NCBI RefSeq assembly: GCF_023333585.1
Contig: NZ_JAIQZN010000029.1
Coordinates: 1-64,000, forward strand
Direction: 5' to 3'
Length of the DNA: 64,000 bases
Origin: Argonema antarcticum A004/B2
GTDB lineage: Bacteria > Cyanobacteriota > Cyanobacteriia > Cyanobacteriales > Aerosakkonemataceae
The position numbers and the translations under genes were made by a program. Below the pieces are notes generated by a model, which was given only the letters and a program-made list of their open reading frames with translations, was not told the DNA's origin and did not search any database. The first letter of the stretch is position 1. The number at the start of each line of letters is the position of its first letter. Below, one piece after another: positions 6,185 through 63,334 of this stretch.

Positions 6185-7078
6185 TTATTCTCTCCTCAAT
6201 ATGTCTTGTGCGATTTTAATTGCCGTAGGTGAGCCACGTCGATTGCCTGATGCAAAACATAGAAGATATAAAGGGTTATTTTTAGAATTATATAATAGTT
6301 TTGGATGATCTGCTACTCCTGGAAATATAGTTTTTAATCGTCCCACAAAGTACTGCTTTATCGAATCGAAATTGGCAACTTTTACTATGTCTAATTCTTC
6401 GCCGAATAATCCCAGTTGTTTGCGTTCCTCGTAAAACACATTGTACCATTCATTCGTGCCAATTATTATATCTATTTTTTGCCGATATGACTCATTTATT
6501 TGGCCCTTTTTTTTAAGTAATCTATTTAAGGCCACACCTATTGGGAAAAGATACCAAAGGTCAATAGCTTGTGTTTGGGCAATAGCTGCAACTGTATCCC
6601 AAGGAACCTGCATTCCATAAGGATCTAAAAATAGAACAGCCCGCTCGCGCTTCTCAATCCAATTCTGGTTTTGACATATTTGTCTTATAAACATATTGGC
6701 ATCTGAGTTTGATAATGAAATATCCCTGTCTGGAAACTCCAGTTTGATATTTTCTAGTTGTTCAAATCGTTTTTTATCCTTTTCAACAAAAATATATTTT
6801 GTGAATCTCGGCTCAACTTGAAGCGCAATCCGCGCAGAACCTTCTAAATTAGTCTTTGAGTCTTGTTCAACAATTCCAGCAAATAGCGGTAACTCTGATT
6901 GCAGTTCTGATTGCTCATTTTGTTTAAGAGTTAGCCATCCGGTTCCTGCAAAGGCATCTATATACATATACTGCTTAAAATTTTGTTTTCTCATGATTGT
7001 TGTATATGCCACAAGATATTTGCGTATACGTTGCAATTTATCAGTTGTCCAATTACCACCAAACATCGCTAACTCCAT
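6185..7078 (-). CDS. tcmP: Three-Cys-motif partner protein TcmP
   Basis: A 297-aa TcmP protein, recognised by WTTDKLQRIRKYLVAYTTIM, MYIDAFAGTGW (a Rossmann-like loop resembling SAM-binding motif I), KYIFVEKDKKRFEQLE and ERAVLFLDPYGMQVPWDTVAA. The family is defined by proximity to three-Cys-motif (DUF5131) genes, exactly as seen here. The methyltransferase-like fold suggests SAM binding, but the activity is unproven. A second Met at residue 5 (7066) is an alternative start. The flanking GNAT gene is separated by about 50 bp and may be co-transcribed. Confidence 0.88.
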   Translation of the reverse strand: MELAMFGGNWTTDKLQRIRKYLVAYTTIMRKQNFKQYMYIDAFAGTGWLTLKQNEQSELQSELPLFAGIVEQDSKTNLEGSARIALQVEPRFTKYIFVEKDKKRFEQLENIKLEFPDRDISLSNSDANMFIRQICQNQNWIEKRERAVLFLDPYGMQVPWDTVAAIAQTQAIDLWYLFPIGVALNRLLKKKGQINESYRQKIDIIIGTNEWYNVFYEERKQLGLFGEELDIVKVANFDSIKQYFVGRLKTIFPGVADHPKLLYNSKNNPLYLLCFASGNRRGSPTAIKIAQDILRRE

Positions 7079-50143: not shown

Positions 50144-51472
50144 ATGCCATTCAATATTGAATTTGACTACCGATTTGATAGCAAGGGGTTTTTCAACGAT
50201 CCAGCACGAAGGCAGGCTTTAGAAGCAGCAGGGAATATTTGGGAAAGCTACATCCAAGATGAATTTCCCGATGTGGGAGCTGGCATTCAGTTAAATGCGA
50301 TAAATCCTGAAACAGATCAACCAGTTCCAGTTACTTTACCTTCTGGAATTGACGATTTGTTGATTTTCGTTGGTAGTGAAGATCTCACAGGCAGTACCCT
50401 TGGCGAGGGAGGATCTTCAAGCGGCGCTGCTGGCACTATTTTCGAGAAGCGATACTTCGGCTCTAATTTTGAGCCTCACGTGGGTCATATCGTATTTGAC
50501 ACGAATAGTCCAGATGGAAGTCCACGTCTGTGGTTTTTTGACCCCACACCCACCACAGGCAATGATATTCCACCCGGACAATCTGACTTTATTTCCATCG
50601 CCTTGCATGAAATAGGGCACGTTTTGGGAGTGGGACAAGCCGAAATTTTTGACACACTAGGTAACGGAGCCAAATTTAATGGCTTGAATGCTCTAAGCGT
50701 TAACGGAGGTCAACCAATTCCGCTTGAAAGCGACTTAGCACATATTAAAGAAGGTTTCCTAAGCGATAATCAGCCTGTCCTTATGGACCCATCAGGAACC
50801 CCCGGACGCACTTTACCGACACCGGCTGACTTGGCAGTATTGGCAGATATTGGCTACCAAATTCCAGGCTATCAAGCTCAAGGTTCAACGCCACCAATAG
50901 CGACAGAAGGTGCTGACCAAATATTTGGCACAGTTTTGGCCGATATGATCAACGGGTTAGATGGCAACGACCAAATTCAAGGAGATCTTGGCAACGATAT
51001 GATCTTGGGGTTAACAGGCGATGATAACATTTTTGGTCAGCAAGATAACGATGCTCTCTTTGGCAATCGAGGTAACGATCAAATCCTGGGCGAGTTAGGC
51101 GATGACGTTATTTATGGTGGAAGAGACGATGATAATTTGTTTGGCGAAGAGGGCAACGATTATCTATCAGGCGATCGCGGCAATGACCAACTTAGAGGCG
51201 GTGCTGGCAGGGATACCTTTGTTTTTCGCGCCGAAAGCAGTACGGATGTAATTAGTGATTTTGTAGTAACAGAAGACTTCATCCAGGTGGCTGGTGGTCT
51301 GGGTTTTAATAGTGGAGCAGATTTGTTAGGCGCTATTGCCACTCCTATCCCAGTTACAGGTGGAGGACTGCTTTCGGAAATTACCCTTAGTGCTGGAAAC
51401 ACCATTAGAGTCTTTAGCGATGTTGCTTTGACAGCGGCAAACTTTACGATCGCAGGCCCTACTACCTTGTAA
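50144..51472 (+). CDS. Zinc metalloprotease (N-terminal) with RTX C-terminus
   Basis: A 442-aa secreted-type protein. Residues 1-245 form a metzincin-like protease: INIEFDYRF-type FNIEFDYRFDSKGFF, IDDLLIFVGS, and HEIGH at 155-159. The third ligand is not in the contiguous HExxHxxGxxH position (Gln there). His200 in DLAHIKEG, followed by Met214 in VLMDP (Met-turn), suggests a leishmanolysin-like displaced ligand. Residues 260-360 are RTX nonapeptides (GLDGNDQIQG, GNRGNDQILG, GGRDDDNLFG), ending in DTFVF and a beta-rich cap. No signal peptide, fitting type I secretion. A paralogue with the two halves swapped lies at 60658. Confidence 0.9.
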   Translation: MPFNIEFDYRFDSKGFFNDPARRQALEAAGNIWESYIQDEFPDVGAGIQLNAINPETDQPVPVTLPSGIDDLLIFVGSEDLTGSTLGEGGSSSGAAGTIFEKRYFGSNFEPHVGHIVFDTNSPDGSPRLWFFDPTPTTGNDIPPGQSDFISIALHEIGHVLGVGQAEIFDTLGNGAKFNGLNALSVNGGQPIPLESDLAHIKEGFLSDNQPVLMDPSGTPGRTLPTPADLAVLADIGYQIPGYQAQGSTPPIATEGADQIFGTVLADMINGLDGNDQIQGDLGNDMILGLTGDDNIFGQQDNDALFGNRGNDQILGELGDDVIYGGRDDDNLFGEEGNDYLSGDRGNDQLRGGAGRDTFVFRAESSTDVISDFVVTEDFIQVAGGLGFNSGADLLGAIATPIPVTGGGLLSEITLSAGNTIRVFSDVALTAANFTIAGPTTL

Positions 51473-51520
51473 CAGAACTGTAAATTGGCTGGTATTTTCC
51501 TAACATTAGGACGAAAAAAA

Positions 51521-51859
51521 ATGACTGAACTATCTAAGTATTTGATGACCGCTGTTATTTCCTCTGTTTTAGCTTCTGGATGCTTAATTGCTACTTCCAG
51601 TAAAGCTTTTGCAGATATAAAAATAGGAAATAATCAACAGACAAATCAGACTAAAACAAACTCGCAAGTTTACTCTATAGATGAGTGGCCTGAAGTACGA
51701 GAAGAGCTTTGCGGTAAATGTAAGTCCGATCGCAATTCTGACGAAAACAAAGTTTCCGTTCCCGAACCATCTTCGGTAATTGCCCTGGTAATACTGGGTG
51801 GCTCTTTGTTGCTGACCAACAAGATAAAGCCCAGATATATCTGGCTTAGGAACAAATAG
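51521..51859 (+). CDS. Small PEP-CTERM-like exported protein
   Basis: A 112-aa protein with an N-terminal leader (MTAVISSVLASGCLIATSSKAFA) and a C-terminal sorting signal VPEPSSVIALVILGGSLLL followed by basic KIKPR, the layout recognised by exosortase. The leader also has LASGC, which could be read as a lipobox, but the AFA cleavage site is equally good. The 60-residue mature part is Asn/Gln/Thr-rich with CGKC. An upstream in-frame start at 51485 adds nothing. Function unknown. Confidence 0.75.
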   Translation: MTELSKYLMTAVISSVLASGCLIATSSKAFADIKIGNNQQTNQTKTNSQVYSIDEWPEVREELCGKCKSDRNSDENKVSVPEPSSVIALVILGGSLLLTNKIKPRYIWLRNK

Positions 51860-51930
51860 CTGTGTTTCCAAAAGCGATCGCATTCCTAAAAATCCGATCG
51901 CTTCCCCTTCGCTCTATCTAGGATGTAGAA

Positions 51931-52164
51931 ATGTCATCAGAATCTGACAATCCGCCAACTACCATTAACGAAATTTTCGCCCGGATTGAGAGCCTTCTGC
52001 TTGAAACTTGGCAAGAAACGGGCTTTGGGTGTTTGACCATCGAAAGCGATCGGCCCAAAGATAAAAAAATTCGGATAATTATCAAGGGTGGCACTCATTA
52101 TCGGTATGTTATTACTGATGAAGAAGTTGTGAGGTGGGCTGGAAACAAATCTTTACGATCGTAA
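51931..52164 (+). CDS. 77-aa conserved protein in duplicated unit, copy 1
   Basis: A small acidic protein: MSSESDNPPTTINEIFARIE, a helix LLLETWQETG, then strands GCLTIESDRP, KIRIIIKGG, YRYVITDEEVVRWAG. The helix-strand-strand layout loosely recalls short nucleic-acid or regulator proteins, but I recognise no family. The nucleotide sequence is identical to copy 2 at 62164, synonymous sites included, which means recent duplication or gene conversion. It follows an RTX gene and a PEP-CTERM gene and precedes a candidate RNA. Confidence 0.65.
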   Translation: MSSESDNPPTTINEIFARIESLLLETWQETGFGCLTIESDRPKDKKIRIIIKGGTHYRYVITDEEVVRWAGNKSLRS

Positions 52165-52191
52165 TTCTACCCCTAGTGGTATAATTCATGC

Positions 52192-52415
52192 AAATGCTGG
52201 AGTGAGGCAGATGCCCGCACCGCAAAAAGCATCCCTAAAGGGTGCAAGATGCAGCTTGAGGCGTAACGGCTAAAAGCAGGGACGCTGTACGATTGTAAGT
52301 ATCGACAGCCAACAACTTTAAATCAACTTAATATTTAGAGAACCTAGTCTGTGACGGATGTGAGTTTCGCGGGGCTGGGGAAATGGTTAAATTTGCCATT
52401 TCCCCAGCTTTTTGT
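52192..52415 (+). ncRNA. Candidate structured RNA / 5' leader, copy 1
   Basis: A consensus TATAAT (52180-52185) predicts a start near 52192. Roughly 180 nt with several short complementary segments follow, then the terminator at 52374. No long open frame. Conserved in the second copy at 62426. It ends 37 nt before the ATG of the giant protein gene at 52452, so it may be either a free small RNA or an attenuator leader. I could not match it to a known riboswitch class. No -35 at standard spacing is evident. Confidence 0.5.
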
Positions 52416-52420
52416 TTTTG
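52374..52420 (+). terminator. Strong intrinsic terminator, copy 1
   Basis: GCTGGGGAAATGG and CCATTTCCCCAGC form a perfect 13-bp stem around the 9-nt loop TTAAATTTG, followed by TTTTTGTTTTTG. Confidence 0.9.
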
Positions 52421-52451
52421 TCAACCAATAATTTTGTGAGGAATTTAGATT

Positions 52452-55400
52452 ATGCAATCCCTAACAAATTATGCTTCCTTCGGTACTTTAAATCCTGAAT
52501 TATTGGATGTTGAATTGTCAGATGAACTGAAAAATGCCCAGAATTACTTGAGAAGTTTGGCGACAAGTCCAGATTTTGTGACGAAAATGCAGGTGGCTTT
52601 TGGTAACGGCTTTGACTTGCAAAAGGTAGAAGAGTTAGCTGCATCTTGGGGAAAAGGAGATTTTGGCAATTTTCCACAAATTGAGATGCGCGATGCGGCT
52701 GAAATTAATGGTGCGAGGGGCGCTTTTGCTGCTGCTACGAATACGATTTATTTATCGCGGGAATTTGCGATCGAGAGTGAGGGGAATGTGGATGCGATCG
52801 CATCTGTTCTCCTGGAAGAATACGGTCATTATATAGACTCGCAGATTAATGCGATCGATGCTGCTGGCGATGAAGGCGAAATTTTTGCTGCACTTGCTCA
52901 GGGGAAGGTGTTGAATGAGTCGGAATTGGCGGCGTTGAAGGGTGAGGATGATAGTGCGATCGTTGTTTTGGATGGGGAAGAGGTGAGAATTGAGCAGGCT
53001 GAAATGACGAGTCAAACAGACAAACTAAACTTTTTTGCTGGAAAAATTGGAAATTGGGGTGGTGGTTCTTCAGGTCTGGAAGAAGATTTATTTAAACCAA
53101 TAGAAATTTCAGCCCCAGGTGGAACAGTTGATAACCTATTCGCTAAATTTGATTGGGATTTAAAATCTGAATTAAAAGGTTCTGTTTTTGTCACTCCTGG
53201 CAATTTTGGAGAAGCAAAGTTTTCCTACCCAATCGATGTTGCTGTAGAATTACCCAAAGAAGTAGATTTAGGTGAAACTTTTTCAATCATACCAGGAGTT
53301 GGAGTCAAAAATTCAGCCGCAGAATTTGATTCACAAGGAACTAAAGGATTTGAATTGCCCAATGCCGGATTCAAAATAGAAGCTAATTTAAGAAAAGCTA
53401 CACTAAAGGATCTGACAATTAAAAATCCGTTCGGTCATCCTTTTCAACCAGATATAGCCATAGAAAGTAGTGGAGGTCAGGCTGAACTAAGTTTTGATGT
53501 TATTAAGTATCCTGAAGGTGGTTTTGAATTTCCTGGTGGAATAGGTTCAATCACCGCTTCAATACCCAAAATTGAGGATGGAGAAATACAACCTACGGCT
53601 GCTCGTGACAGTAGCGATCCACTACTACCAGATATTGCTGCTTCTGGTAAATCGAACAATATTATAAATTTAGAAGGAGATTTAGATAAAATATTTGCTC
53701 TCTCTTTTCCAGCACTGAGAGTGCTAGGGAATGAAGTAGAAGCATCCTTACCAGAAGAAAGAATTAAGGCTAAATTAAGTTACGATCTTTTAGACATCAA
53801 AGCTAATATTGGATTAGGTCTTCAGCAAGATTTTACATTCGATCCTGACAGAGCAGAAGTCACAATGTCAGTAGATGGACAATCTGAACAAAATGGAGTT
53901 TTAGGTAATCAAAATAACAAGTTTGAATTTAAAGCTCCTTCTCAAGGCTCTGGACTGGTAAAAGTAAAAGCTAAATATGAACTTTTCGGTAACGTAAAAA
54001 ATAACATCGGTTCTGTTTTTCAAGGTGGTATCGATGTTAGCGCTCTCCAAGCCGGAGGAAGTTTTGAAATTGGAAACTTATCAGGTAGTTCTCAGTTTGG
54101 CCCACTGTTGTCGCTAAAGATACCAGAAGGTGGTTTTGCAACCGATCCATTACCCTTGATTGGTAGTCCTCCAACCAAGCCTAGTGATTTCGATCCAAAA
54201 TTTAAAATTTTGAAAACAATTAATACCAAGGAAGTTGAAGGAACAGAATTAGATGATAAGAATCCAGATCAAAATGCCAGCAAAAATCTCATAGTTGAGG
54301 TTGAGTACGAAATTCCCTACAACCTACCTTTTTCCATCTCAGATGCGCGTGCAACAGAAGGAGACAACTTAGTATTTACAGTATCGCGCCGCGAACCATC
54401 AAATCAAGCAGTAAACTTGATAGTCGAATACGAAAATGGAAACGCAACAGCAGGCGAAGACTATTCTCCCAGTCAAAGGACAGTAACAATTCCTGGCGGA
54501 CAAGTTAGCGCTGATATTACTGTACCAACTACCGGAGATAACAAACAAGAATCAACTGAAACTTTCAAAGTTAAACTGAAAAAACCTGATGGTTCCAGCT
54601 TTGCTACTAACGATCCAGTTACTACAATTGATGCGACAGGCATAATTATCGACGACGACCAAAAACCCGATCGACCTAAAGACGGAGGCAAAACCTACAA
54701 CGACCCCCGCATCGTCACTCTCGACAAGCAATACCACGACTTTCAAGCAGTTGGAGAATTCGTATTAGTTGAATCAACTAGCGGCGATCTAAAAATTCAG
54801 GTACGACAACAACCACTGGGTAGCGATCGCCTCGGTAGCGTCTCCGAAAACACAGCCGTAGCCACAGTTTTGGCTGGACAACGCATCGGCATTTACAGAG
54901 ATCGAGGACTTTTAATCAACGGCAACCCCACCACTATTGCTAATAATGACTCACTCATTATTGGAGATGGTCGCATTTATCGTGAAGGTGGTCAATATAC
55001 CATTGTTTACGGCACTGGCGATCAACTGGTTGCAAGTGTATCAAATCGCGTTAATGTAAGCTTTTTTGCCAAAGAAGAACGACAAGGACAAATTAAAGGA
55101 TTACTGGGTAACTTCAACCGAGATCCGAAAGACGATCTCACTAAACGAGATGGTACTGTACTAACTCCTCCTGTCACCCTCAGTCAGCTTTACAACGAGT
55201 ATGCGGATAGCTGGCGCATCAACCAAGCTGAGTCTTTATTTGACTACAAACCCAGTGAAAATACTAACACTTTTACTAACAGAAACTTCCCGCGCAAGAA
55301 GGTCACTCTCAGAGATTTAGACCCCACAGATATTCGGCGTGCAGAACAAGTAATTGGCGATCGCATTTCCAACCCCATTGTCCGCGAAGCTGCCATCATC

Positions 55401-57938
55401 GATTATATTCTCACGGGATTTGATGAAAGCATCATCGAAGAAGCGATCGCATCCCTCACCCCCGAAAGCGTACTCGCGATCGCCATCCCCACCCAAGCAG
55501 TTGACGACTTCACCGCTACCACCGTCAACACACCCATCAGACTTGATGTTACCAGCAACGACGATCGCACTATCGGTGTCCCCATCTCCATCTTCAACTT
55601 TGACCAAACCTCAACCGCAGGTAGCATCATCAGATTAGATGATAACAGCACTCCCGACGACAAAACCGACGACCAATTAATCTACACCCCAACTGCCAAT
55701 TTTACTGGTAACGATACCTTCAACTACACTGTAACCGATGGCACTCAAACCAGTACCGCCAAAGTAACAGTAAATATCGCCGCTTTCAACCTCTCAAACC
55801 TCAACGGTAGTAACGGTTTTACCCTCAACGGAATTAACGCGGGTAACTTCGCTGGCGTTTCCGTCAACACGCTGGGAGATTTCAACGGCGATGGTTTCCA
55901 TGACTTCATTATCGGAGCCTTCGCAGCCGATCCCAATAACAATAATGCCGCCGGAGAAACTTATGTAGTCTTCGGCAAAAAAGGCGGATTTCCTGCTAGC
56001 ATAGACTTACCAAAACTAGACGGAAGCAACGGTTTCATCCTCAACGGTATCGATACCAATGGTTTTAGCGGCGGTTCTGTCAGCAGTGCGGGAGACATCA
56101 ACGGCGATGGACTTGACGACTTAGTTATCGGTGCTTTTGGAGCAACAGCTAACGGTCAAAATAATGCCGGAAAGAGTTATGTAGTGTTTGGTTCAAAAGC
56201 AGTTCTTCCTGCTCGATTAAACCTTTCTGACCTCAACGGAAATAACGGTTTTGTAGTCAACGGAATTAACGAATTCGACTATTTAGGTTTATCCGTTAGC
56301 GGTGCAGGCGATATCAACGCCGATGGGATTGATGACTTGTTAATGAGCGCTCCTGGCCCATTAAACGGTACTCTCAGCAAGAGCTATGTGATGTACGGTC
56401 ACAAAGGAAATTTCGCCGCCAATCTCAACTCTTCTGATATTAATGGTAGCAACGGATTTGTTATTAACGATAATGATGGAAAATCCGGTACTTCCGTTAG
56501 TGCTGCTGGGGATATTAATGGAGATCGCATCGATGATATCATCATCAACGCCGAAGAAAACGACTCGAATAACTACGTAGTATTCGGTTCCGCTAAAGGA
56601 TTTCCGGCTAATTTTAACTTATCGGAACTCAACGGCAGTAACGGTTTCATTCTCGATACTCTAAATGAAAAATCCGGCACTACTGTCAGCAAAGCAGGAG
56701 ATATTAACGGCGATACCATTGATGATTTAATTATCTCCCTGGCTAGCAGCAATTCTAACATTGGAAAAACCTACATTTTATTTGGCAACAACCGAGGCTT
56801 TGCTCCTCGCTTCGATGTTTCCCAATTCAATGGCAGGAATGGTTTTGCAGTTATTAACAACATCGATGGTAACTCAATTAGTGCTGTTAGCGGTGCGGGA
56901 GATATCAACGGAGATGGGATTGACGATTTAGCGATCGCCACTTCCCAAGCTAACGCTAACGCAGGCAAGACTTACATCCTATTTGGCGATAATGCCGGAT
57001 TTACTCCCACTTTTTACCTCTCCAAAATTAATGGTACTAACGGCTTAGTTATCAATGGTATTAAGGAGGACGATTTATCTGGAACTTCTCTCAGTCAGGG
57101 AGGAGATATTAACGGCGACAATATAGACGACTTAGTTATTGGTTCTCCGGGTAACTTGTTTAAAAATTCGCCCGGTCAAACTCATGTGGTATTTGGAAAT
57201 ACGCTTTTCGGTAGCAGCAAAGACACCAGCAATTTAGCCAAACTTTTGTTTGATTCCCGCTATTACAGCAACCAAAATCCAGATGTGCGATCGGCAGTTT
57301 CTAATGGTTTATTCCATAACGCCTTTGAACATTTTGTTAAGTTTGGTTTAAATGAAGGACGCGAACCAAGTGCGACATTTGCTGGTGATTATCTAACTAA
57401 TAATCCAGATGTTGCAGCAGCCGTTAATACTGGTATTTTCCATAGCGGTTTTGAACATTTTATCAAAGCGGGTTTGGCGGAAGGACGACAACCAGATTCA
57501 ATTCTCGGTTCTTTAGCTTCCTTAGAAGTATTTTATCGCTCCGAAAATCCAGATGTGGTACAAGCTATTCAACAAGAAATTTTAAGCAGCGGATTGGAAC
57601 ATCTAATCCGGTTCGGAATGTTTGAGGAACGTCCTCCCTTTACCCGCTTTAACGCTTTGTCGGAAACCTTCAATTCCGATTTTTATTTAGCTCAAAATCA
57701 GGACGTGAAACAAGCTGTTGATGCTGACATTATAGGCAGTGGATTTGAACATTTTGTTAATTTTGGCTTGTTGGAAGGACGCGACCCCAGCAGCCAATTT
57801 AGTAATAGTTCGTATCTAGCGAATTATCCAGATATTGCTGGCGCTGTTAGTAACGGTATCTTCCGCAGCGGATACGAACACTTTATGAAGTATGGTTTTG
57901 GAGAAGATCGAGTTGGTGTAGAGACCAGTTTTCGATGA
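52452..57938 (+). CDS. Giant multidomain secreted protein (Calx-beta, vWD, FG-GAP)
   Basis: An 1828-aa exported-type protein. Residues 20-175 form the cyanobacterial N-terminal module with a pseudo-protease motif EEYGH (122-126, first His of HExxH missing) and DGEEVRIEQ. 200-620 is uncharacterised beta-rich sequence. A Calx-beta domain (about 627-735), a von Willebrand D-like domain (about 750-926, GLLGNFNRDPKDDLTKRDG) and a cadherin-like domain (about 1013-1108, TGNDTFNYTVTDGTQ) follow. Seven FG-GAP repeats (DINGDGxDDL, 1112-1588) suggest a Ca-binding beta-propeller. Five roughly 42-residue NPDV repeats end it. Probably an adhesin or matrix protein. GAGG precedes the ATG, after the candidate RNA terminator. 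Confidence 0.88.
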   Translation: MQSLTNYASFGTLNPELLDVELSDELKNAQNYLRSLATSPDFVTKMQVAFGNGFDLQKVEELAASWGKGDFGNFPQIEMRDAAEINGARGAFAAATNTIYLSREFAIESEGNVDAIASVLLEEYGHYIDSQINAIDAAGDEGEIFAALAQGKVLNESELAALKGEDDSAIVVLDGEEVRIEQAEMTSQTDKLNFFAGKIGNWGGGSSGLEEDLFKPIEISAPGGTVDNLFAKFDWDLKSELKGSVFVTPGNFGEAKFSYPIDVAVELPKEVDLGETFSIIPGVGVKNSAAEFDSQGTKGFELPNAGFKIEANLRKATLKDLTIKNPFGHPFQPDIAIESSGGQAELSFDVIKYPEGGFEFPGGIGSITASIPKIEDGEIQPTAARDSSDPLLPDIAASGKSNNIINLEGDLDKIFALSFPALRVLGNEVEASLPEERIKAKLSYDLLDIKANIGLGLQQDFTFDPDRAEVTMSVDGQSEQNGVLGNQNNKFEFKAPSQGSGLVKVKAKYELFGNVKNNIGSVFQGGIDVSALQAGGSFEIGNLSGSSQFGPLLSLKIPEGGFATDPLPLIGSPPTKPSDFDPKFKILKTINTKEVEGTELDDKNPDQNASKNLIVEVEYEIPYNLPFSISDARATEGDNLVFTVSRREPSNQAVNLIVEYENGNATAGEDYSPSQRTVTIPGGQVSADITVPTTGDNKQESTETFKVKLKKPDGSSFATNDPVTTIDATGIIIDDDQKPDRPKDGGKTYNDPRIVTLDKQYHDFQAVGEFVLVESTSGDLKIQVRQQPLGSDRLGSVSENTAVATVLAGQRIGIYRDRGLLINGNPTTIANNDSLIIGDGRIYREGGQYTIVYGTGDQLVASVSNRVNVSFFAKEERQGQIKGLLGNFNRDPKDDLTKRDGTVLTPPVTLSQLYNEYADSWRINQAESLFDYKPSENTNTFTNRNFPRKKVTLRDLDPTDIRRAEQVIGDRISNPIVREAAIIDYILTGFDESIIEEAIASLTPESVLAIAIPTQAVDDFTATTVNTPIRLDVTSNDDRTIGVPISIFNFDQTSTAGSIIRLDDNSTPDDKTDDQLIYTPTANFTGNDTFNYTVTDGTQTSTAKVTVNIAAFNLSNLNGSNGFTLNGINAGNFAGVSVNTLGDFNGDGFHDFIIGAFAADPNNNNAAGETYVVFGKKGGFPASIDLPKLDGSNGFILNGIDTNGFSGGSVSSAGDINGDGLDDLVIGAFGATANGQNNAGKSYVVFGSKAVLPARLNLSDLNGNNGFVVNGINEFDYLGLSVSGAGDINADGIDDLLMSAPGPLNGTLSKSYVMYGHKGNFAANLNSSDINGSNGFVINDNDGKSGTSVSAAGDINGDRIDDIIINAEENDSNNYVVFGSAKGFPANFNLSELNGSNGFILDTLNEKSGTTVSKAGDINGDTIDDLIISLASSNSNIGKTYILFGNNRGFAPRFDVSQFNGRNGFAVINNIDGNSISAVSGAGDINGDGIDDLAIATSQANANAGKTYILFGDNAGFTPTFYLSKINGTNGLVINGIKEDDLSGTSLSQGGDINGDNIDDLVIGSPGNLFKNSPGQTHVVFGNTLFGSSKDTSNLAKLLFDSRYYSNQNPDVRSAVSNGLFHNAFEHFVKFGLNEGREPSATFAGDYLTNNPDVAAAVNTGIFHSGFEHFIKAGLAEGRQPDSILGSLASLEVFYRSENPDVVQAIQQEILSSGLEHLIRFGMFEERPPFTRFNALSETFNSDFYLAQNQDVKQAVDADIIGSGFEHFVNFGLLEGRDPSSQFSNSSYLANYPDIAGAVSNGIFRSGYEHFMKYGFGEDRVGVETSFR

Positions 57939-57960
57939 TAGAGAAAGTGCTGTGCGTGAC

Positions 57961-58001
57961 TTAAAGGAAAAGTTGGCCGTAGCGGCAAGCTTTTCCTTTA
58001 A
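57961..58001 (+). terminator. Terminator after giant protein gene
   Basis: TTAAAGGAAAAG (57961-57972) pairs perfectly with CTTTTCCTTTAA (57990-58001) around a 17-nt loop, 22 bp after the stop codon. Confidence 0.8.
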
Positions 58002-58107
58002 AATTATCTCGATATAGATATTTCGTACTCGATTCGCTCGCTCTAACTAGAAAAACTAGCTAGTTGCGATCGCGCTCAAAAGCCATTCCACAAAGCAGTT
58101 GTGAAAT

Positions 58108-58177
58108 TCCTAACCAAAATCCTAACGTAATTCACAACCAACGTTGTGCGATCGCCACAGGTTGTCTCGGTTATGCT
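58108..58177 (+). promoter_or_regulatory. Phased-repeat promoter element, copy B
   Basis: TCCTAACCAAAA, TCCTAACGTAAT and TCACAACCAACG, with palindrome CACAAC-N4-GTTGTG at 58133-58148, then 23 nt, then TATGCT (58172-58177) and CTTCTCA. Spacings equal copies A and C. It precedes the 79-aa gene at 58259 by 81 nt. The remaining spacer (58002-58107 and 58178-58258) shows nothing else recognisable. Confidence 0.7.
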
Positions 58178-58258
58178 CTTCTCAAGCCCAGCGAAGCGCC
58201 GTAATTCTCAGCACGGAGATAATTCGTTTTTTTGTAGAGATGTTACATCATTCACAAT

Positions 58259-58498
58259 ATGTCTTGCCCTCAAAACCTCTTTGGACAGCCTGGTTGCTAC
58301 ATCACCGCTCATCCAGACCGCCCGCACGAGAAATTTTGTGCGACTTGTCAAAAACAATTTGTTGATTCCGAACCATTGGGAGTTTTACATTTATTTGCCA
58401 TCCTAATATTGGCACTTTTCCTGAGCAATTCAATCCAGAGTAGGTCATCTCAAACTTCCCAACCAGCCTCTGTAATTATCGAGCATACAGAAGAGTGA
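58259..58498 (+). CDS. 79-aa Cys-rich single-span membrane protein
   Basis: The N-terminal half has Cys residues at 3, 12, 27 and 30 (CPQNLFGQPGCYITAHPD, then FCATCQKQF), a likely zinc-ribbon-like knot. One hydrophobic helix follows (VLHLFAILILALFLSN), then a Ser/Gln-rich tail. No clear Shine-Dalgarno. Several overlapping frames exist here, but this one has the coherent domain layout and lies directly behind promoter element B and ahead of C. Could be a small membrane regulator; function unknown. Confidence 0.55.
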   Translation: MSCPQNLFGQPGCYITAHPDRPHEKFCATCQKQFVDSEPLGVLHLFAILILALFLSNSIQSRSSQTSQPASVIIEHTEE

Positions 58499-58504
58499 AA
58501 CAAA

Positions 58505-58575
58505 TCCCTAACCAAAATCCTAACATAATTCACAACCGACGTTGTGCGATCGACACTGGTAGGTTAGGCTACGAT
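58505..58575 (+). promoter_or_regulatory. Phased-repeat promoter element, copy C
   Basis: (T)CCCTAACCAAAA, TCCTAACATAAT and TCACAACCGACG, with palindrome CACAAC-N4-GTTGTG at 58531-58546, 23 nt, then TACGAT (58570-58575) and CTTCTCATGC. Downstream, GAGCGTTCTCA (58611) and CCGCGTTTTTTCT (58674) repeat features of the leader after copy A. It drives toward the CAP-domain gene at 58753. Confidence 0.7.
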
Positions 58576-58752
58576 CTTCTCATGCTCATTCAAAGCAGAA
58601 TATCGGAGCGTTCTCATATTTTATTCTTGCTAGATCGACAACTCACACTCGCTCGATCTGGTTTCCCAAAAAAACCGCGTTTTTTCTACAGCAGAAACCG
58701 GAAATTTGGGGTACTTCTACAATTCCTGCATAAGTTTTGGAGCGAATAACCT

Positions 58753-59721
58753 ATGACCGTAAACCTATTGGATGTAAATTACTATCGCTCTGCCAATCCA
58801 GATTTAGTTAGATCTGGACTTGGCACAGATGCACAACTGACCGAACACTTTTTGAAGTTTGGTGTTAACGAAGGCCGTCCCTTCTCGCCATTCGCAAATC
58901 TCGATTTTTATCGCGTTAGCAATCAGGATTTAGCTGCGGGTGGGATAAATAGCAACTTGCAAGCTTTTTACCATTTGCAAAACAATGGCGTAGCTGAGGG
59001 ACGCAGATTTTCTCCTGGCTTTAATTCCTCTTTTTATAAAGCTGTCAATCCCGACTTATCGGGTGCGGGTATGAATAATAACGAACAATTATTCGAGCAT
59101 TTCCGCGCTTCTGGTGTCAATGAGGGACGCCCCTCCGCAGAAAATTTCAATGTCCGTTTTTATCTGGATGCTAATCCAGATTTGAGGGCAGCAAATTTAA
59201 ACTATGTGCAGGCATTTCAGCATTACGTAACCTTTGGATATAAGGAAGGACGCGCTGCTGTTCCGGGAGGTTCTACTCCGCCGCCACCTCCTCCACCGCC
59301 ACAACCAGACCCGAATGTAGATTTTATCACTGGTGTTGTCAACCTGACTAATTCTTTTCGCGCACAAAATAGTTTGCCGCCACTGACGATCAATCCTCAA
59401 TTGAATGCTTCTGCACAAGCACACACCACAGACATGGCGCTCAACGACTATTTCGATCATACGGGATTGAACGGTTCTGATATTGGCGATCGCATCGGTG
59501 CTACAGGTTATAGATACTCCTATATAGGAGAAAACATTGCAGCGGGTTATTCTACACCAGAAGCAGTCGTAAACGGATGGATTAACAGTCCGGGACATCG
59601 CGCCAATATGCTTAATCCCAATTATAAGGACATTGGCGTTGGTTACTATTTCCTAGCTAATGATACTGGGAATTTTAACTACAACTATTACTGGACACAA
59701 AATTTTGGCAGTCCCTTTTAA
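58753..59721 (+). CDS. NPDV-repeat CAP-domain secreted protein
   Basis: A 322-aa protein. Residues 1-170 are four copies of a 42-residue repeat (YYRSANPDLVRSG ... EHFLKFGVNEGRP) shared with the giant protein at 52452 and, once, with the protein at 60658. A Pro-rich linker (STPPPPPPPPQPDP) leads to a CAP/SCP/PR-1 domain (195-322): LTNSFRAQNSLPPLTINPQL, SAQAHTTDMALNDYFDHTG, GENIAAGYSTPEAVVNGWIN, SPGHRANMLNP and YYWTQNFG. The CAP cavity His residues (QAHT, SPGHR) and Glu (GENI) are present. No classical signal peptide. Role may be adhesion or peptidoglycan/lipid interaction (inference). The next RTX gene starts 18 bp on. Confidence 0.9.
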   Translation: MTVNLLDVNYYRSANPDLVRSGLGTDAQLTEHFLKFGVNEGRPFSPFANLDFYRVSNQDLAAGGINSNLQAFYHLQNNGVAEGRRFSPGFNSSFYKAVNPDLSGAGMNNNEQLFEHFRASGVNEGRPSAENFNVRFYLDANPDLRAANLNYVQAFQHYVTFGYKEGRAAVPGGSTPPPPPPPPQPDPNVDFITGVVNLTNSFRAQNSLPPLTINPQLNASAQAHTTDMALNDYFDHTGLNGSDIGDRIGATGYRYSYIGENIAAGYSTPEAVVNGWINSPGHRANMLNPNYKDIGVGYYFLANDTGNFNYNYYWTQNFGSPF

Positions 59722-59739
59722 ATCGCACAGGAGTAAATT

Positions 59740-60543
59740 ATGGGCTTTCTACTAGGTACGGATATTAGCGAACGACTTGAAGGTCAAACTCCAGCAGATA
59801 ATGACACAATATTTGGTTCTGGCGGTGACGACACGATCGTTGGAGGTTCTGGCAATGACCTGATTAACGGCAACCAAGGAAACGACGTAATCTTTGGAGA
59901 ATTCAATCCTGGTGGTGATGCTAGCGGAAATGACACCGTGCGCGGAGGTAGAGGCGACGATACAGTTTACGGAGGTGGAGGCGACAGCTTTATTTATGGA
60001 GATAAAGGTAACGATTTCCTCACAGGTCAATTCGGAAATGATGTTTTGTTTGGCGGCTCGGAAAACGACGATTTAGAAGGTAATAGAGGTAATGATTCTC
60101 TTGATGGAGGAGAAGGAAATGATACTCTCTATGGTTTCAGATTTGACGATGTTCCTATTGCTGGTAGGAATGAAATTGATACTTTAACTGGTGGAACAGG
60201 AGCAGATAGGTTTATTTTAGGATTCAATCGCTTAGGGCCAAATGTTGCTTATCAAGATGGAAAAGATGGTTCTGGTACTGACAACTACGCTTTGATTACC
60301 GACTTTAGCCTAATCGAAGGCGATTTAATTCAGGTCATTGGCCCCCGACAGTCTATTACATCCTATGTCGGATACATCCGTTTAGCACCATCTCCTACTG
60401 GTTTACCACCAGGTACGGCAATTTATACAAGTACTTTCAATGATGACGATGAACTCATTGGTATTGTGCAAGGAACTCCACTAGGCGAAGATACTTTCTT
60501 TGCTCAAGATCCGCCTCCTGCTGGCTTTGTTTACGTTTTTTAG
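59740..60543 (+). CDS. RTX calcium-binding repeat protein
   Basis: A 267-aa RTX protein. Nonapeptides run from residue 20 to 140 (GSGGDDTIVGGSGNDLING, GGRGDDTVYG, GDKGNDFLTG, GNRGNDSLDG). The standard beta-roll cap follows (TLTGGTGADRFILGF, ALITDFSLIEGDLIQVIG). A cyanobacterial C-terminal stretch (GTAIYTSTFNDDDELIGIVQ) has no known activity. No signal peptide. AGGAG lies ahead of the ATG. It is 18 bp after the CAP gene and so probably in the same transcript, driven by promoter element C. Confidence 0.92.
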   Translation: MGFLLGTDISERLEGQTPADNDTIFGSGGDDTIVGGSGNDLINGNQGNDVIFGEFNPGGDASGNDTVRGGRGDDTVYGGGGDSFIYGDKGNDFLTGQFGNDVLFGGSENDDLEGNRGNDSLDGGEGNDTLYGFRFDDVPIAGRNEIDTLTGGTGADRFILGFNRLGPNVAYQDGKDGSGTDNYALITDFSLIEGDLIQVIGPRQSITSYVGYIRLAPSPTGLPPGTAIYTSTFNDDDELIGIVQGTPLGEDTFFAQDPPPAGFVYVF

Positions 60544-60566
60544 CATTCTCTCCCGGTAAATGGGGC

Positions 60567-60609
60567 GGTGCGTTACAAAGCGAGAAAATTGAAACATTGT
60601 AACGCACCC
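60567..60609. repeat. GGTGCGTTACAA inverted repeat
   Basis: GGTGCGTTACAA (60567-60578) and TTGTAACGCACC (60598-60609) form a 12-bp stem, followed by CTACTTAATGTA, as in a related element near 33990. It lies between two RTX genes. Confidence 0.7.
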
Positions 60610-60657
60610 TACTTAATGTACGAAAATCTTTCATTTTGGTAACAGGAGAATTGAACA

Positions 60658-62079
60658 ATGGCAACTATAAACGGCACAACAAGCAATGATTTCCTTGATG
60701 GTTCTTTAGAAGCTGACATTATTAGCGGATTAATAGGAGATGACATAATTCGCGGTTTTGACGGCAATGACAATATTAACAGTAATGAAGGAAATGACAT
60801 TATTAACGGCAACGCTGGTAATGATAACGTGCAAGGCGGTCAAGGCAACGATATCGTGCGCGGAGGTCAAGGAAATGACCAAGTTTTTGGTAATTTAGGT
60901 AACGATACTTTATTCGGAGATTTGGGTGCTGATACTTTAACTGGTGGGGAAGGTAACGATACATTTTTCTTACGAAACAATGCTGGTACGGATATTTTTG
61001 TTGATTTTGCTGATGGAGTCGATCGACTTGGTTTGTCTAGCGGTTTGAGTTTTAACGACCTTTTAATTAGTCAAGGTACAGGTGCTAACGCTAACAACAC
61101 TATTATTACAGACAATATCACAGGTGAGCTTTTGGCAATTTTGCAAGGTGTCAATAGCACCACGATAACTCTTGACGATTTTACCACTGGCGATTTTGAC
61201 GAAAACTTTTACTTGGTAAGGAATTTCGATGTTGCTTATGCACTTTTTAAAGGGCAAATAAACAGTGCTTTAGACCACTACAATCAAGCTGGAAAAGCTG
61301 AAGGTCGAATGGGCACTCCTCCCAGACCTAGCACTTTTAATATTGAGTTCGACTATCGATTTGATACGAATGGATTTTTGGCCGATCCCGCTCGCAAAGC
61401 AACTTTAGAAGCAGCAGCTAAAGTTTGGGAATCTGTTATTCAAGATGAATTCCCCGATATCCCTGCTGGTACTGCATTCTTCGTAGAAAATCCTCAAACG
61501 GGGCAAATAGATAGGATTGTTTTAGATAAGCCGATCGACGATCTTCTAATTTTTGTGGGTGCTAAACCTTTTACTGGCGAAATTAGCGAAGCTGGTGGAG
61601 TAACAAATGGTGAAGCTGCTGGTTTTGAAGATGCCAATGGTTTTTCGTATCTTTTCCTAAATCGAATTGAAGGAGATAACTATGAACCTTATGCAGGAAG
61701 CATATCATTTAATACTCTAGTTACATATCAGGTCGATTCTACTCCATTTATCTTGAGCGACAATCCGCCTGGAAATTTTGGTTATGGTCTTTTTTCTACT
61801 GCGGAGCATGAAATTGGTCACGCTTTAGGAATCGGTTTAGGAGGTACTTTTGAAAAACGAAGTAACGAAAATATTTTTGATGGCCCTAATGTTAGGGCTG
61901 TTAATGGAGGCAATCCCATTCCTTTTGATGGTGAAGGGCATCCGCAATTCAATTTTGTGAGCAGTAAGGGTGTGCCAGCTTTTCTAGGAGGTAGTGAGAA
62001 TTTACGGTCACTTATACCTACAGAAGTGGATTTGGCGATTTTAGCAGATATTGGCTACCAAATTGCTGGGGGTTTTTGA
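60658..62079 (+). CDS. RTX (N-terminal) protein with C-terminal metalloprotease-like domain
   Basis: A 473-aa protein with the domain order of 50144 reversed. RTX nonapeptides at about 10-110 (GFDGNDNINS, GNAGNDNVQGGQGNDIVRG) with cap DTFFLR. One NPDV-type repeat at about 178-220 (FYLVRNFDVAYALFKG...HYNQAGKAEGR). Then the protease-like domain (FNIEFDYRFDTNGFLADPAR, IDDLLIFVGA) with HEIGH at 384-388. The displaced ligand candidate is His428 in GEGHPQF, at the same spacing as in the paralogue. The Met-turn position holds Phe442 (PAFLGG) instead of Met, so activity is uncertain. AGGAG precedes the ATG. Confidence 0.9.
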   Translation: MATINGTTSNDFLDGSLEADIISGLIGDDIIRGFDGNDNINSNEGNDIINGNAGNDNVQGGQGNDIVRGGQGNDQVFGNLGNDTLFGDLGADTLTGGEGNDTFFLRNNAGTDIFVDFADGVDRLGLSSGLSFNDLLISQGTGANANNTIITDNITGELLAILQGVNSTTITLDDFTTGDFDENFYLVRNFDVAYALFKGQINSALDHYNQAGKAEGRMGTPPRPSTFNIEFDYRFDTNGFLADPARKATLEAAAKVWESVIQDEFPDIPAGTAFFVENPQTGQIDRIVLDKPIDDLLIFVGAKPFTGEISEAGGVTNGEAAGFEDANGFSYLFLNRIEGDNYEPYAGSISFNTLVTYQVDSTPFILSDNPPGNFGYGLFSTAEHEIGHALGIGLGGTFEKRSNENIFDGPNVRAVNGGNPIPFDGEGHPQFNFVSSKGVPAFLGGSENLRSLIPTEVDLAILADIGYQIAGGF

Positions 62080-62163
62080 GTAATTTCAAAGCTGGTTTTT
62101 CAGGAAGCGATCGCATTCCTAAAAATCCGATCGCTTCCCCTTCGCTCTATCTAGGATGTAGAA

Positions 62164-62397
62164 ATGTCATCAGAATCTGACAATCCGCCAACTACCATTA
62201 ACGAAATTTTCGCCCGGATTGAGAGCCTTCTGCTTGAAACTTGGCAAGAAACGGGCTTTGGGTGTTTGACCATCGAAAGCGATCGGCCCAAAGATAAAAA
62301 AATTCGGATAATTATCAAGGGTGGCACTCATTATCGGTATGTTATTACTGATGAAGAAGTTGTGAGGTGGGCTGGAAACAAATCTTTACGATCGTAA
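62164..62397 (+). CDS. 77-aa conserved protein in duplicated unit, copy 2
   Basis: Identical at nucleotide level to the ORF at 51931-52164. Here it follows a metalloprotease-RTX gene and precedes the second candidate RNA and the COP23 gene. Function unknown; see copy 1 for layout. Confidence 0.65.
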   Translation: MSSESDNPPTTINEIFARIESLLLETWQETGFGCLTIESDRPKDKKIRIIIKGGTHYRYVITDEEVVRWAGNKSLRS

Positions 62398-62425
62398 TTC
62401 TACCCCTAGTGGTATAATTCATGCA

Positions 62426-62649
62426 AATGCTGGAGTGAGGCAGATGCCCACACCGCAAAAAGCATCCATAAAGGGTTCAAGATGCTAGCTTGAGGCGTAA
62501 CGGCTAAAAGCAGGGACGCTGTACGATTGTAAGTATCGACAGCAAACAACTTTAAATCAATTAAATATTCAGAGAACCTAGTCTGTGACGGATGTGAGTT
62601 TCGCGGGGCTGGGGAAATGGCAAATTTAACCATTTCCCCAGCTTTTTGT
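62426..62649 (+). ncRNA. Candidate structured RNA / 5' leader, copy 2
   Basis: TATAAT at 62413-62418 predicts a start near 62425. It matches copy 1 except for about ten positions, scattered in the first two thirds and concentrated in the terminator loop. It ends 67 nt before the COP23 start codon. Confidence 0.5.
62608..62649 (+). terminator. Strong intrinsic terminator, copy 2
   Basis: The same 13-bp stem GCTGGGGAAATGG / CCATTTCCCCAGC, but the loop is CAAATTTAA, the exact reverse complement of the copy 1 loop. Followed by TTTTTGTC. Confidence 0.9.
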
Positions 62650-62716: not shown

Positions 62717-63334
62717 ATGAAACGACAATTGCTAACACAAATTCTGGCAGCAGGATCGATCGCACTCGCCAGCGGAAGCATAACCAGTCAACCCAGTCAA
62801 GCGCAAAGTACCACTTTTTTCTGCGGTGCAAGCCAAGGTAAACCAGCCACGATCGCCCAAACCCCACGCGGCAATATCCCTGTAATTGTTTGGGTTTCGC
62901 AGTATTTCACCCGTTCTGGATTTAACCCTCAAGCCCGCTGCGAAGATGTATCCAGCAGATTCCAAAGTTTTTACAGCCAAGGCGCTTTGAACTTCATCAC
63001 CGCCGGAATTGTCAACGGTCAACCAGTGGTCTGCGCTACTGGTGCAGCAGGTGGCCCTTGCAACAACACCAATGTTTTGTTCACGCTCAAGCCTGGGGAA
63101 AACGCCGCCCGCGTAATTCAAGGATTACACCAAATTCGGGGCGGTGCATCTAGGCCACTTTACGAAGGCACGAGGCGGCGTAGCAGTTCTAGTTCCGACT
63201 CGATTAATGTTAACGATTTCCTCAACAACGCCCCGGTAGAAGCAGAAGCTTCCGCCAGCAGTCCCGAACCAAATAATGCAGCCCCGGCGATGAGTCAGCC
63301 TTCTTCTGCACCTGCGGGCGGTAATGCTTGGTAA
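62717..63334 (+). CDS. COP23 domain secreted protein
   Basis: A 205-aa protein. Signal peptide (LLTQILAAGSIALASGSITS, cleavage near SQAQS), then the COP23 domain: TTFFCGASQGKPATIAQTPR, IPVIVWVSQYF, ARCEDVSSRFQSFYSQGALN, GQPVVCATGAAGGPCNN and NVLFTLKPGENAARVIQGL. Four Cys residues could form two disulphides. COP23 was first described as a circadian-oscillating membrane-associated polypeptide in Cyanothece. A Ser/Pro/Ala-rich tail ends it. An upstream open frame to 62651 is leader sequence; the ATG at 62717 begins the signal peptide. A trypsin-like protease gene follows, a common pairing. Confidence 0.92.
   Translation: MKRQLLTQILAAGSIALASGSITSQPSQAQSTTFFCGASQGKPATIAQTPRGNIPVIVWVSQYFTRSGFNPQARCEDVSSRFQSFYSQGALNFITAGIVNGQPVVCATGAAGGPCNNTNVLFTLKPGENAARVIQGLHQIRGGASRPLYEGTRRRSSSSSDSINVNDFLNNAPVEAEASASSPEPNNAAPAMSQPSSAPAGGNAW

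Follow-up and report, generated by a model that had tools for sequence, protein, structure and literature searches.

A 64,000-nucleotide stretch of DNA from Argonema antarcticum A004/B2 (contig NZ_JAIQZN010000029.1, positions 1 to 64,000; the whole of it is referred to here as the window) includes two copies of what is very likely a structured leader RNA. We favor, with a probability of about 0.62, the interpretation that a small partner protein controls this RNA, which would act in cis as a transcription attenuator; data on expression, binding or transcription in vitro are lacking. Comparison with relatives shows a conserved fold, an overlap between one of its helices (P2) and an intrinsic terminator, and a linkage between the RNA and a family of small proteins.

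A duplicated unit in the window

A 546-bp unit is present twice in the window, and the two copies are identical at 534 of 546 positions (98%) when compared to each other using blastn. The unit includes, in this order, a 77-aa ORF, the promoter-like sequence TGGTATAAT, the leader RNA and an intrinsic terminator, and it ends 37-70 nt upstream of the next ATG (Table 1). A search of the genome revealed only these two copies of the RNA. An earlier note, made from the sequence alone, had described a consensus TATAAT, a leader without a long ORF in the region 52180-52452, and a strong terminator followed at a distance of about 37 nt by the start codon of a giant protein, and all three claims held. 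Its further claim that the same arrangement precedes a COP23 gene also held but was understated, as the region 62413-62649 belongs to the second copy of the unit; the duplication, including the 77-aa ORF, had not been recognised.

Table 1. Coordinates of the features identified in the window
Feature	Positions	Strand	Evidence or remarks
Duplicated unit, copy 1 (small ORF, promoter, RNA and terminator)	51872..52415	+	blastn against copy 2
Duplicated unit, copy 2	62105..62649	+	blastn
Small ORF, 77 aa, copy 1; probable partner protein of the RNA	51931..52164	+	Family found in 23/24 RNA-bearing genomes; no Pfam/NCBIfam match
Small ORF, copy 2; same sequence as copy 1	62164..62397	+	
-10 box TATAAT, copy 1, extended form TGGTATAAT	52180..52185	+	Sequence
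-10 box TATAAT, copy 2	62413..62418	+	Sequence
Optional 5' leader extension	52190..52273	+	Comparison of copies
Conserved RNA core, copy 1	52274..52386	+	Covariance model matches, 121 bits (R1) and 111 bits (R3)
Conserved RNA core, copy 2	62508..62620	+	Covariance model match, 121.8 bits (R1); P1 62518-62543; P2 62577-62583 with 62607-62613
P1 hairpin with bulged A	52284..52309	+	Covariation; loop UGUAAGU (52294-52300) matches T-loop consensus
P2 helix	52343..52379	+	CCUAGUC 52343-52349 with GGCUGGG 52373-52379; alignments, pair counts
P2b hairpin inside P2, loop UGUGAGU	52355-52358/52366-52369	+	Alignments, pair counts
Intrinsic terminator stem-loop, copy 1, 17-pair stem followed by T-rich tail	52371..52411	+	Terminator scan, fold energies; 5' arm overlaps P2 3' arm
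Terminator hairpin, copy 2; loop in the opposite orientation to that of copy 1	62605..62645	+	Sequence, blastn, fold
Downstream gene 1, 1828-aa secreted/adhesin-like protein	52452..57938	+	ORF; Pfam FG-GAP, VWD, Calx-beta, cadherin-like
Downstream gene 2, COP23 family protein	62717..63334	+	Pfam PF14218, E 1.3e-41

The differences between the copies are confined to the RNA/terminator part, with helices P1, P2 and P2b and the 77-aa ORF unchanged. The absence of differences in the ORF half suggests either a recent gene conversion of that part or a faster change of the RNA linkers. The terminator loop is inverted between the copies: the 35 bases at 52374-52408 match exactly the opposite strand of 62608-62642, which could be the result of a flip between the arms of the inverted repeat. 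A simple terminator scan calls the hairpin of copy 1 and misses that of copy 2 because the 9-nt loop of the latter exceeds the limit of the scan; the copy 2 stem itself is present in the fold. The leaders of the two copies fold more stably than all of 200 dinucleotide shuffles (z of -4.0 and -3.6). No good -35 box was found ahead of the copy 1 TATAAT. The optional 5' extension of the leader is found in the A004/B2 genome and two relatives, and is missing from the Microcoleus-type copies. Genes for RTX, metalloprotease-like, PEP-CTERM-like, CAP-domain and giant adhesin-like proteins are clustered around both RNAs (50144-62079).

Conserved fold and loops of the RNA

The relatives of this RNA have a common two-domain fold consisting of a bulged hairpin, P1, and a second hairpin, P2/P2b. 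Pairing was evaluated using alignment A4, composed of 32 non-identical sequences aligned without reference to structure, in which 93.6% of the pairs are standard, 9 pairs are changed on both sides, and 55 cells carry such changes. The covariation score was 0.391, as compared to 0.278 +/- 0.013 for shuffles and 0.168 or less for slid registers, and no shuffle or slid register came close on the pairing percentage, the number of cells with both-side changes, or the score. The P1 pairing GCUGU-A-CGGC/GCUG-ACAGC is replaced in relatives by CAGU/ACUG or CGAU/AUCG. P2 (CCUAGUC/GGCUGGG) encloses P2b, which is CGGA/UUCG in the window and UGAG/CUCA or UGGG/CUCA in relatives. In alignment A2 the P2b pairs covary from C-G to U-A and from A-U to G-C, and this covariation is independent of fitting because P2b was not part of the model used to align A2. 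In the P2 helix itself most changes affect one side only, as expected of a helix whose 3' arm is doubly constrained. Pair counts on the matches from Nostocaceae also revealed covariation, with 12 pairs changed on both sides, although caution is needed as that alignment was fitted to the model.

Both hairpin loops are 7 nt long, and the pattern U-[GU]-N-R-A-N-N is matched in 28 and 29 of the 32 sequences, respectively. Hairpins of the T-loop type number 49 in the alignment, as opposed to 1.65 expected from shuffles. In the T-loop form found in riboswitches, a GNR triloop is flanked by a U-A pair and two bases bulge out on the 3' side (PMC2258182), and both loops match this description; that they actually adopt the T-loop structure is inferred from their bases only. 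At three loci (L089, L090 and L091) the P2b loop is GGGUUCAAUCCC, the form of the tRNA T arm, instead of UGUGAGU.

Overlap between P2 and the terminator

P2 and the terminator have one arm in common, 3' in the former and 5' in the latter, i.e., GGCUGGG can pair with CCUAGUC or with the 3' arm of the terminator, and for this reason the two states are mutually exclusive. Constrained folding of the relatives showed that both states can form, the terminator being usually a few kcal/mol better, and up to about 16, while in a few relatives it is equal to or slightly worse than the P2 state. The competition is explicit in Nostocaceae, where the P2 pairing GGCUU...AAGCC is opposed to the terminator AAGCCGG...CCGGCUUUUU. 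The position of the RNA is nearly constant across genomes, typically 85-160 nt upstream of the start codon. The T-run is separated from the ATG by 37-70 nt in the window and in the Microcoleus-type copies inspected, and no promoter was seen within the terminator-to-ATG space in any of these. Most Microcoleus-type copies have a TTGACA-N17-TANNNT promoter located 26-28 nt upstream of the core. In other genomes the RNA lies directly 3' of the small ORF, and its arrangement there implies that it would be read from the promoter of that ORF. At loci L103, L105 and L107 an ORF of 10-14 codons (e.g., MLKTNSLVCR) is found just past the terminator and before a giant protein gene.

The presence, ahead of a gene, of a terminator and of a conserved helix that cannot form at the same time is typical of cis-acting transcription attenuators, and it is likely that the element functions as a terminator/antiterminator switch. 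The reading "structured RNA or attenuator" put forward in the earlier note is thus supported by the covariation, by the terminator arm common to the conserved alternative helix, and by the near-constant position before the start codon.

Distribution of the RNA and genes located downstream

A nucleotide search of the order detected 21 copies in 14 of 391 genomes. Covariance model R1, and then R2, which has a further helix added, raised the carriers to 24 of 391 genomes belonging to 10 genera, with 34 closer relatives in these 24 genomes. Among the carriers are Microcoleus, Tychonema, Planktothricoides sp. SR001 and Oscillatoriales MAGs. A nucleotide search of plasmids found nothing; a plasmid carrier, pMIC7113.03 of Allocoleopsis franciscana PCC 7113, was identified by a protein search for homologues of the small protein. 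A lone pattern match on a viral contig (L067) was discarded as due to chance, being inside a phage ORF and lacking the surrounding fold. The distribution is patchy; two congeneric species, for example, had no detected copy. Searches of wider samples using R1 and R3 missed the RNA copies of Nostocaceae, as an isolated match scores too low to be recognised across an entire genome, and these copies were recovered only by way of the protein. The number of carriers, at least 24, is for this reason a lower bound.

The genes that follow the RNA code for COP23 (in several genomes), a giant "KMQVAFGN" protein, RTX proteins, an S8 peptidase, a signal-peptide protein, and a glycosyltransferase-like protein with a giant protein gene behind it. 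They also include, as recognised by eye, genes for what we take to be a DUF4189-like protein and a DAHP synthase. In Nostocaceae the downstream gene encodes a membrane protein of about 80-100 aa. Most of the products, not all, are likely to be exported or membrane-bound. The location "before secreted-protein genes" that had been claimed earlier therefore held for the two genes in the window and not in general, and the idea that only secreted-protein genes are found downstream was rejected, since the DAHP synthase and the small membrane proteins also follow the RNA. The DAHP synthase is the only biosynthetic target seen; at this locus (L102, G011:C215) the RNA occupies positions 6951-7069 of the minus strand and the DAHP synthase gene is followed by chorismate-lyase-like and ligase-like genes.

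A family of small proteins linked to the RNA

The 77-aa ORF belongs to a family of 75-140 aa proteins with the consensus ...ETWxETGFGxxxIxSERxxxxKIxVxxxGSTxYRYxIxDEDVxxW, which are encoded just upstream of the RNA or elsewhere in the genome. Searches of Pfam and NCBIfam with the small protein found no match, and hence no ANTAR domain. In a sample of 120 genomes the small protein was found in 10 of the 10 that bear the RNA and in none of the other 110; among further RNA-bearing genomes it was found in 13 of 14, for a total of 23 of 24. The exception is a draft genome (G347) in which the RNA is present and the protein was undetected. The split between 10/10 and 0/110 reflects the reach of the models rather than strict absence, because Nostocaceae hold distant forms of both partners that are beyond this profile. 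These counts also ignore kinship among genomes and as a consequence overstate significance, since related genomes are not independent.

Extension of the profile to a distant Nostoc homologue allowed the small protein to be detected in 23 of 74 Nostocaceae genomes. For 23 of the 25 distinct Nostocaceae genes the RNA was located on the same strand, 99-300 nt downstream; four of these RNAs were recognised through the covariance model only, and the others through the P2/P2b motif, which was never seen on the opposite strand near these genes. The order protein-RNA-membrane protein is kept across many genera of the family. Small-protein genes may also be found apart from the RNA: locus L121 (G010:C178, 1501-1737) is a second small-protein gene without a detectable adjoining RNA, and unlinked copies are present in G179, G363 and other genomes. 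A 558-aa ORF (L153/L171, G891:C57) matches the small-protein profile twice in tandem, and no RNA was found alongside it. The linkage between RNA and protein is strong, yet linkage is not binding, and it could possibly reflect the joint movement of one unit.

The fold predicted for the window protein is alpha-beta-beta-beta-alpha (pLDDT 72), a model that would be compatible with several RNA-binding folds; there are no binding data. Two models of the protein differ in detail, and their matches to PDB structures are non-significant and discordant; comparison of the sequence of the protein with PDB also gave no significant match. The most plausible fold match of model 1 is SRP9/14 (Foldseek probability 0.97, TM 0.58), with an E-value of 0.3, and this match was absent with model 2, which is of higher confidence. 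Kinship with SRP9/14 is suggested by one of the two models only and was not used in the interpretation.

Comparison with known RNA families

Analysis of the window using cmscan and Rfam 15 revealed no match at the gathering score. The sensitive mode applied to the element gave nothing credible, only chance miRNA/snoRNA-like matches to the terminator hairpin, and 14 relatives and four distant ones likewise had no match. The covariance models of the AdoCbl and FMN riboswitches did not match the window, the element, or any of these 18 sequences, and no tRNA or tmRNA was found when looked for. The suggestion in the earlier note that the element does not fit known classes held in these searches. 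The classes of the 2010 survey in which many cyanobacterial motifs were defined are in Rfam (PMC2864571), and therefore would have matched if present. We found no description of this RNA in the open-access literature searched.

The closest comparison is with the leaders controlled by ANTAR proteins (EutV, NasR/NasT, AmiR), in which two hairpins, the second overlapping a terminator, are both bound by the protein that prevents termination (PMC3369931). The RNA described here also has two hairpins with conserved loops, the second of which has sequence in common with the terminator. However, the ANTAR loops are hexaloops with A1 and G4 while those of the new RNA are 7 nt long and conform to U-[GU]-N-R-A-N-N, the partner is a 75-140 aa protein without a Pfam match, the P1 stem is bulged and in two parts, and P2 encloses a second hairpin. 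Because the loops, the protein family and these details differ, the new RNA is not an ANTAR system; by analogy its mode of action may nonetheless resemble that of the ANTAR leaders, to which it is unrelated.

Other systems were also compared. In the AdoCbl and FMN riboswitches, too, a 5' leader carries two stems capped by T-loops, and gene control is exerted by an expression platform further downstream (PMC2258182), but here there is no Rfam match, the targets are unrelated to cobalamin or flavin, and the linkage to a protein is strong. The glnA and Downstream-peptide motifs, which are cyanobacterial glutamine riboswitches, are leader RNAs of the same phylum (PMC2864571); both are in Rfam and neither matches the new RNA. 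BglG/LicT-type antitermination, mentioned in PMC3369931, is similar in that a protein stabilises an RNA structure that excludes the terminator, while the RNA and protein families are others. The Alu domain of SRP with SRP9/14 is only a weak lead: SRP9/14 recognises a UGU motif and has the weak fold match to one model of the small protein mentioned above, but the architecture of the RNA is unlike and the match was not reproduced.

Proposed mechanism and alternative explanations

In the mechanism that we propose, the leader made first by RNA polymerase would fold into two hairpins, P1 and P2/P2b, each capped by a T-loop. As long as P2 is maintained, it would sequester the sequence needed for the 5' arm of the terminator, allowing read-through to the gene beyond; otherwise the stronger terminator would form and end transcription 37-70 nt upstream of the start codon. 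The partner protein of 75-140 aa would probably bind both hairpins and shift this balance, the simplest possibility being that it stabilises P2, i.e., antitermination. Our preference for the small protein as the effector is an inference that we hold only by a modest margin, and we likewise only infer that the protein binds, in which direction it acts, and that it responds to a signal.

A metabolite or ion riboswitch, in which P2 is stabilised by a small ligand bound to the core of two T-loops, the small protein being merely a member of the same pathway, must be considered. It is favored by the presence of double T-loops in the AdoCbl and FMN riboswitch aptamers (PMC2258182), by invariant residues like those of an aptamer together with a terminator arm common to P2, and by the existence of RNA copies without an adjoining small ORF and of one genome without the protein. 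On the other hand, COP23, RTX proteins, giant adhesins, the S8 peptidase, DAHP synthase and small membrane proteins have no metabolic pathway in common, a tight linkage to one protein family is unexpected of a switch that depends on a ligand only, and no Rfam riboswitch class was matched. We consider this alternative unlikely, and the "riboswitch-like" option raised in the earlier note was amended: a metabolite riboswitch is no longer the preferred interpretation, given the association of the RNA with the small protein.

The element could also act in trans, either as an independent small RNA of about 190-230 nt or as one derived from the 3'-UTR of the small ORF, and be near the downstream gene only incidentally. 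It has a promoter and terminator of its own, and in several genomes the small ORF ends a few nt before the RNA or inside it. However, the competition between P2 and the terminator recurs across the relatives, for which a plain small RNA has no need, the start codon is close with no room seen for another promoter, and the order before COP23 is conserved in several genomes that lack an adjoining small ORF, all of which makes this explanation very unlikely. We give even less credit to the possibility that protein and RNA form a selfish or toxin-antitoxin-like cassette that inserts before genes without a regulatory role for them. The duplication of the entire unit in the window, the patchy distribution and the plasmid-borne copy are consistent with such a cassette, but the order protein-RNA-membrane protein is constant over many genera of Nostocaceae, RNAs without an adjoining ORF persist with their fold and promoters conserved, and no transposase, end repeats or match to a toxin family was seen.

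Significance

The protein-controlled attenuator that we prefer can be extended to a bolder reading, which we hold to be slightly more likely than not: an undescribed RNA-protein system present across a cyanobacterial order, in which a leader with two T-loops and an unclassified small RNA-binding protein would switch secreted, surface and membrane proteins by means of transcription termination. To our knowledge, few protein-controlled antitermination systems have been described in the cyanobacterial phylum. If the interpretation is true, a new RNA family and a new family of partner proteins would join the short list of such systems. The regulation of COP23, RTX and giant adhesin-like proteins is also, as far as we know, largely undescribed, and the system would provide a handle on how filamentous cyanobacteria control them.
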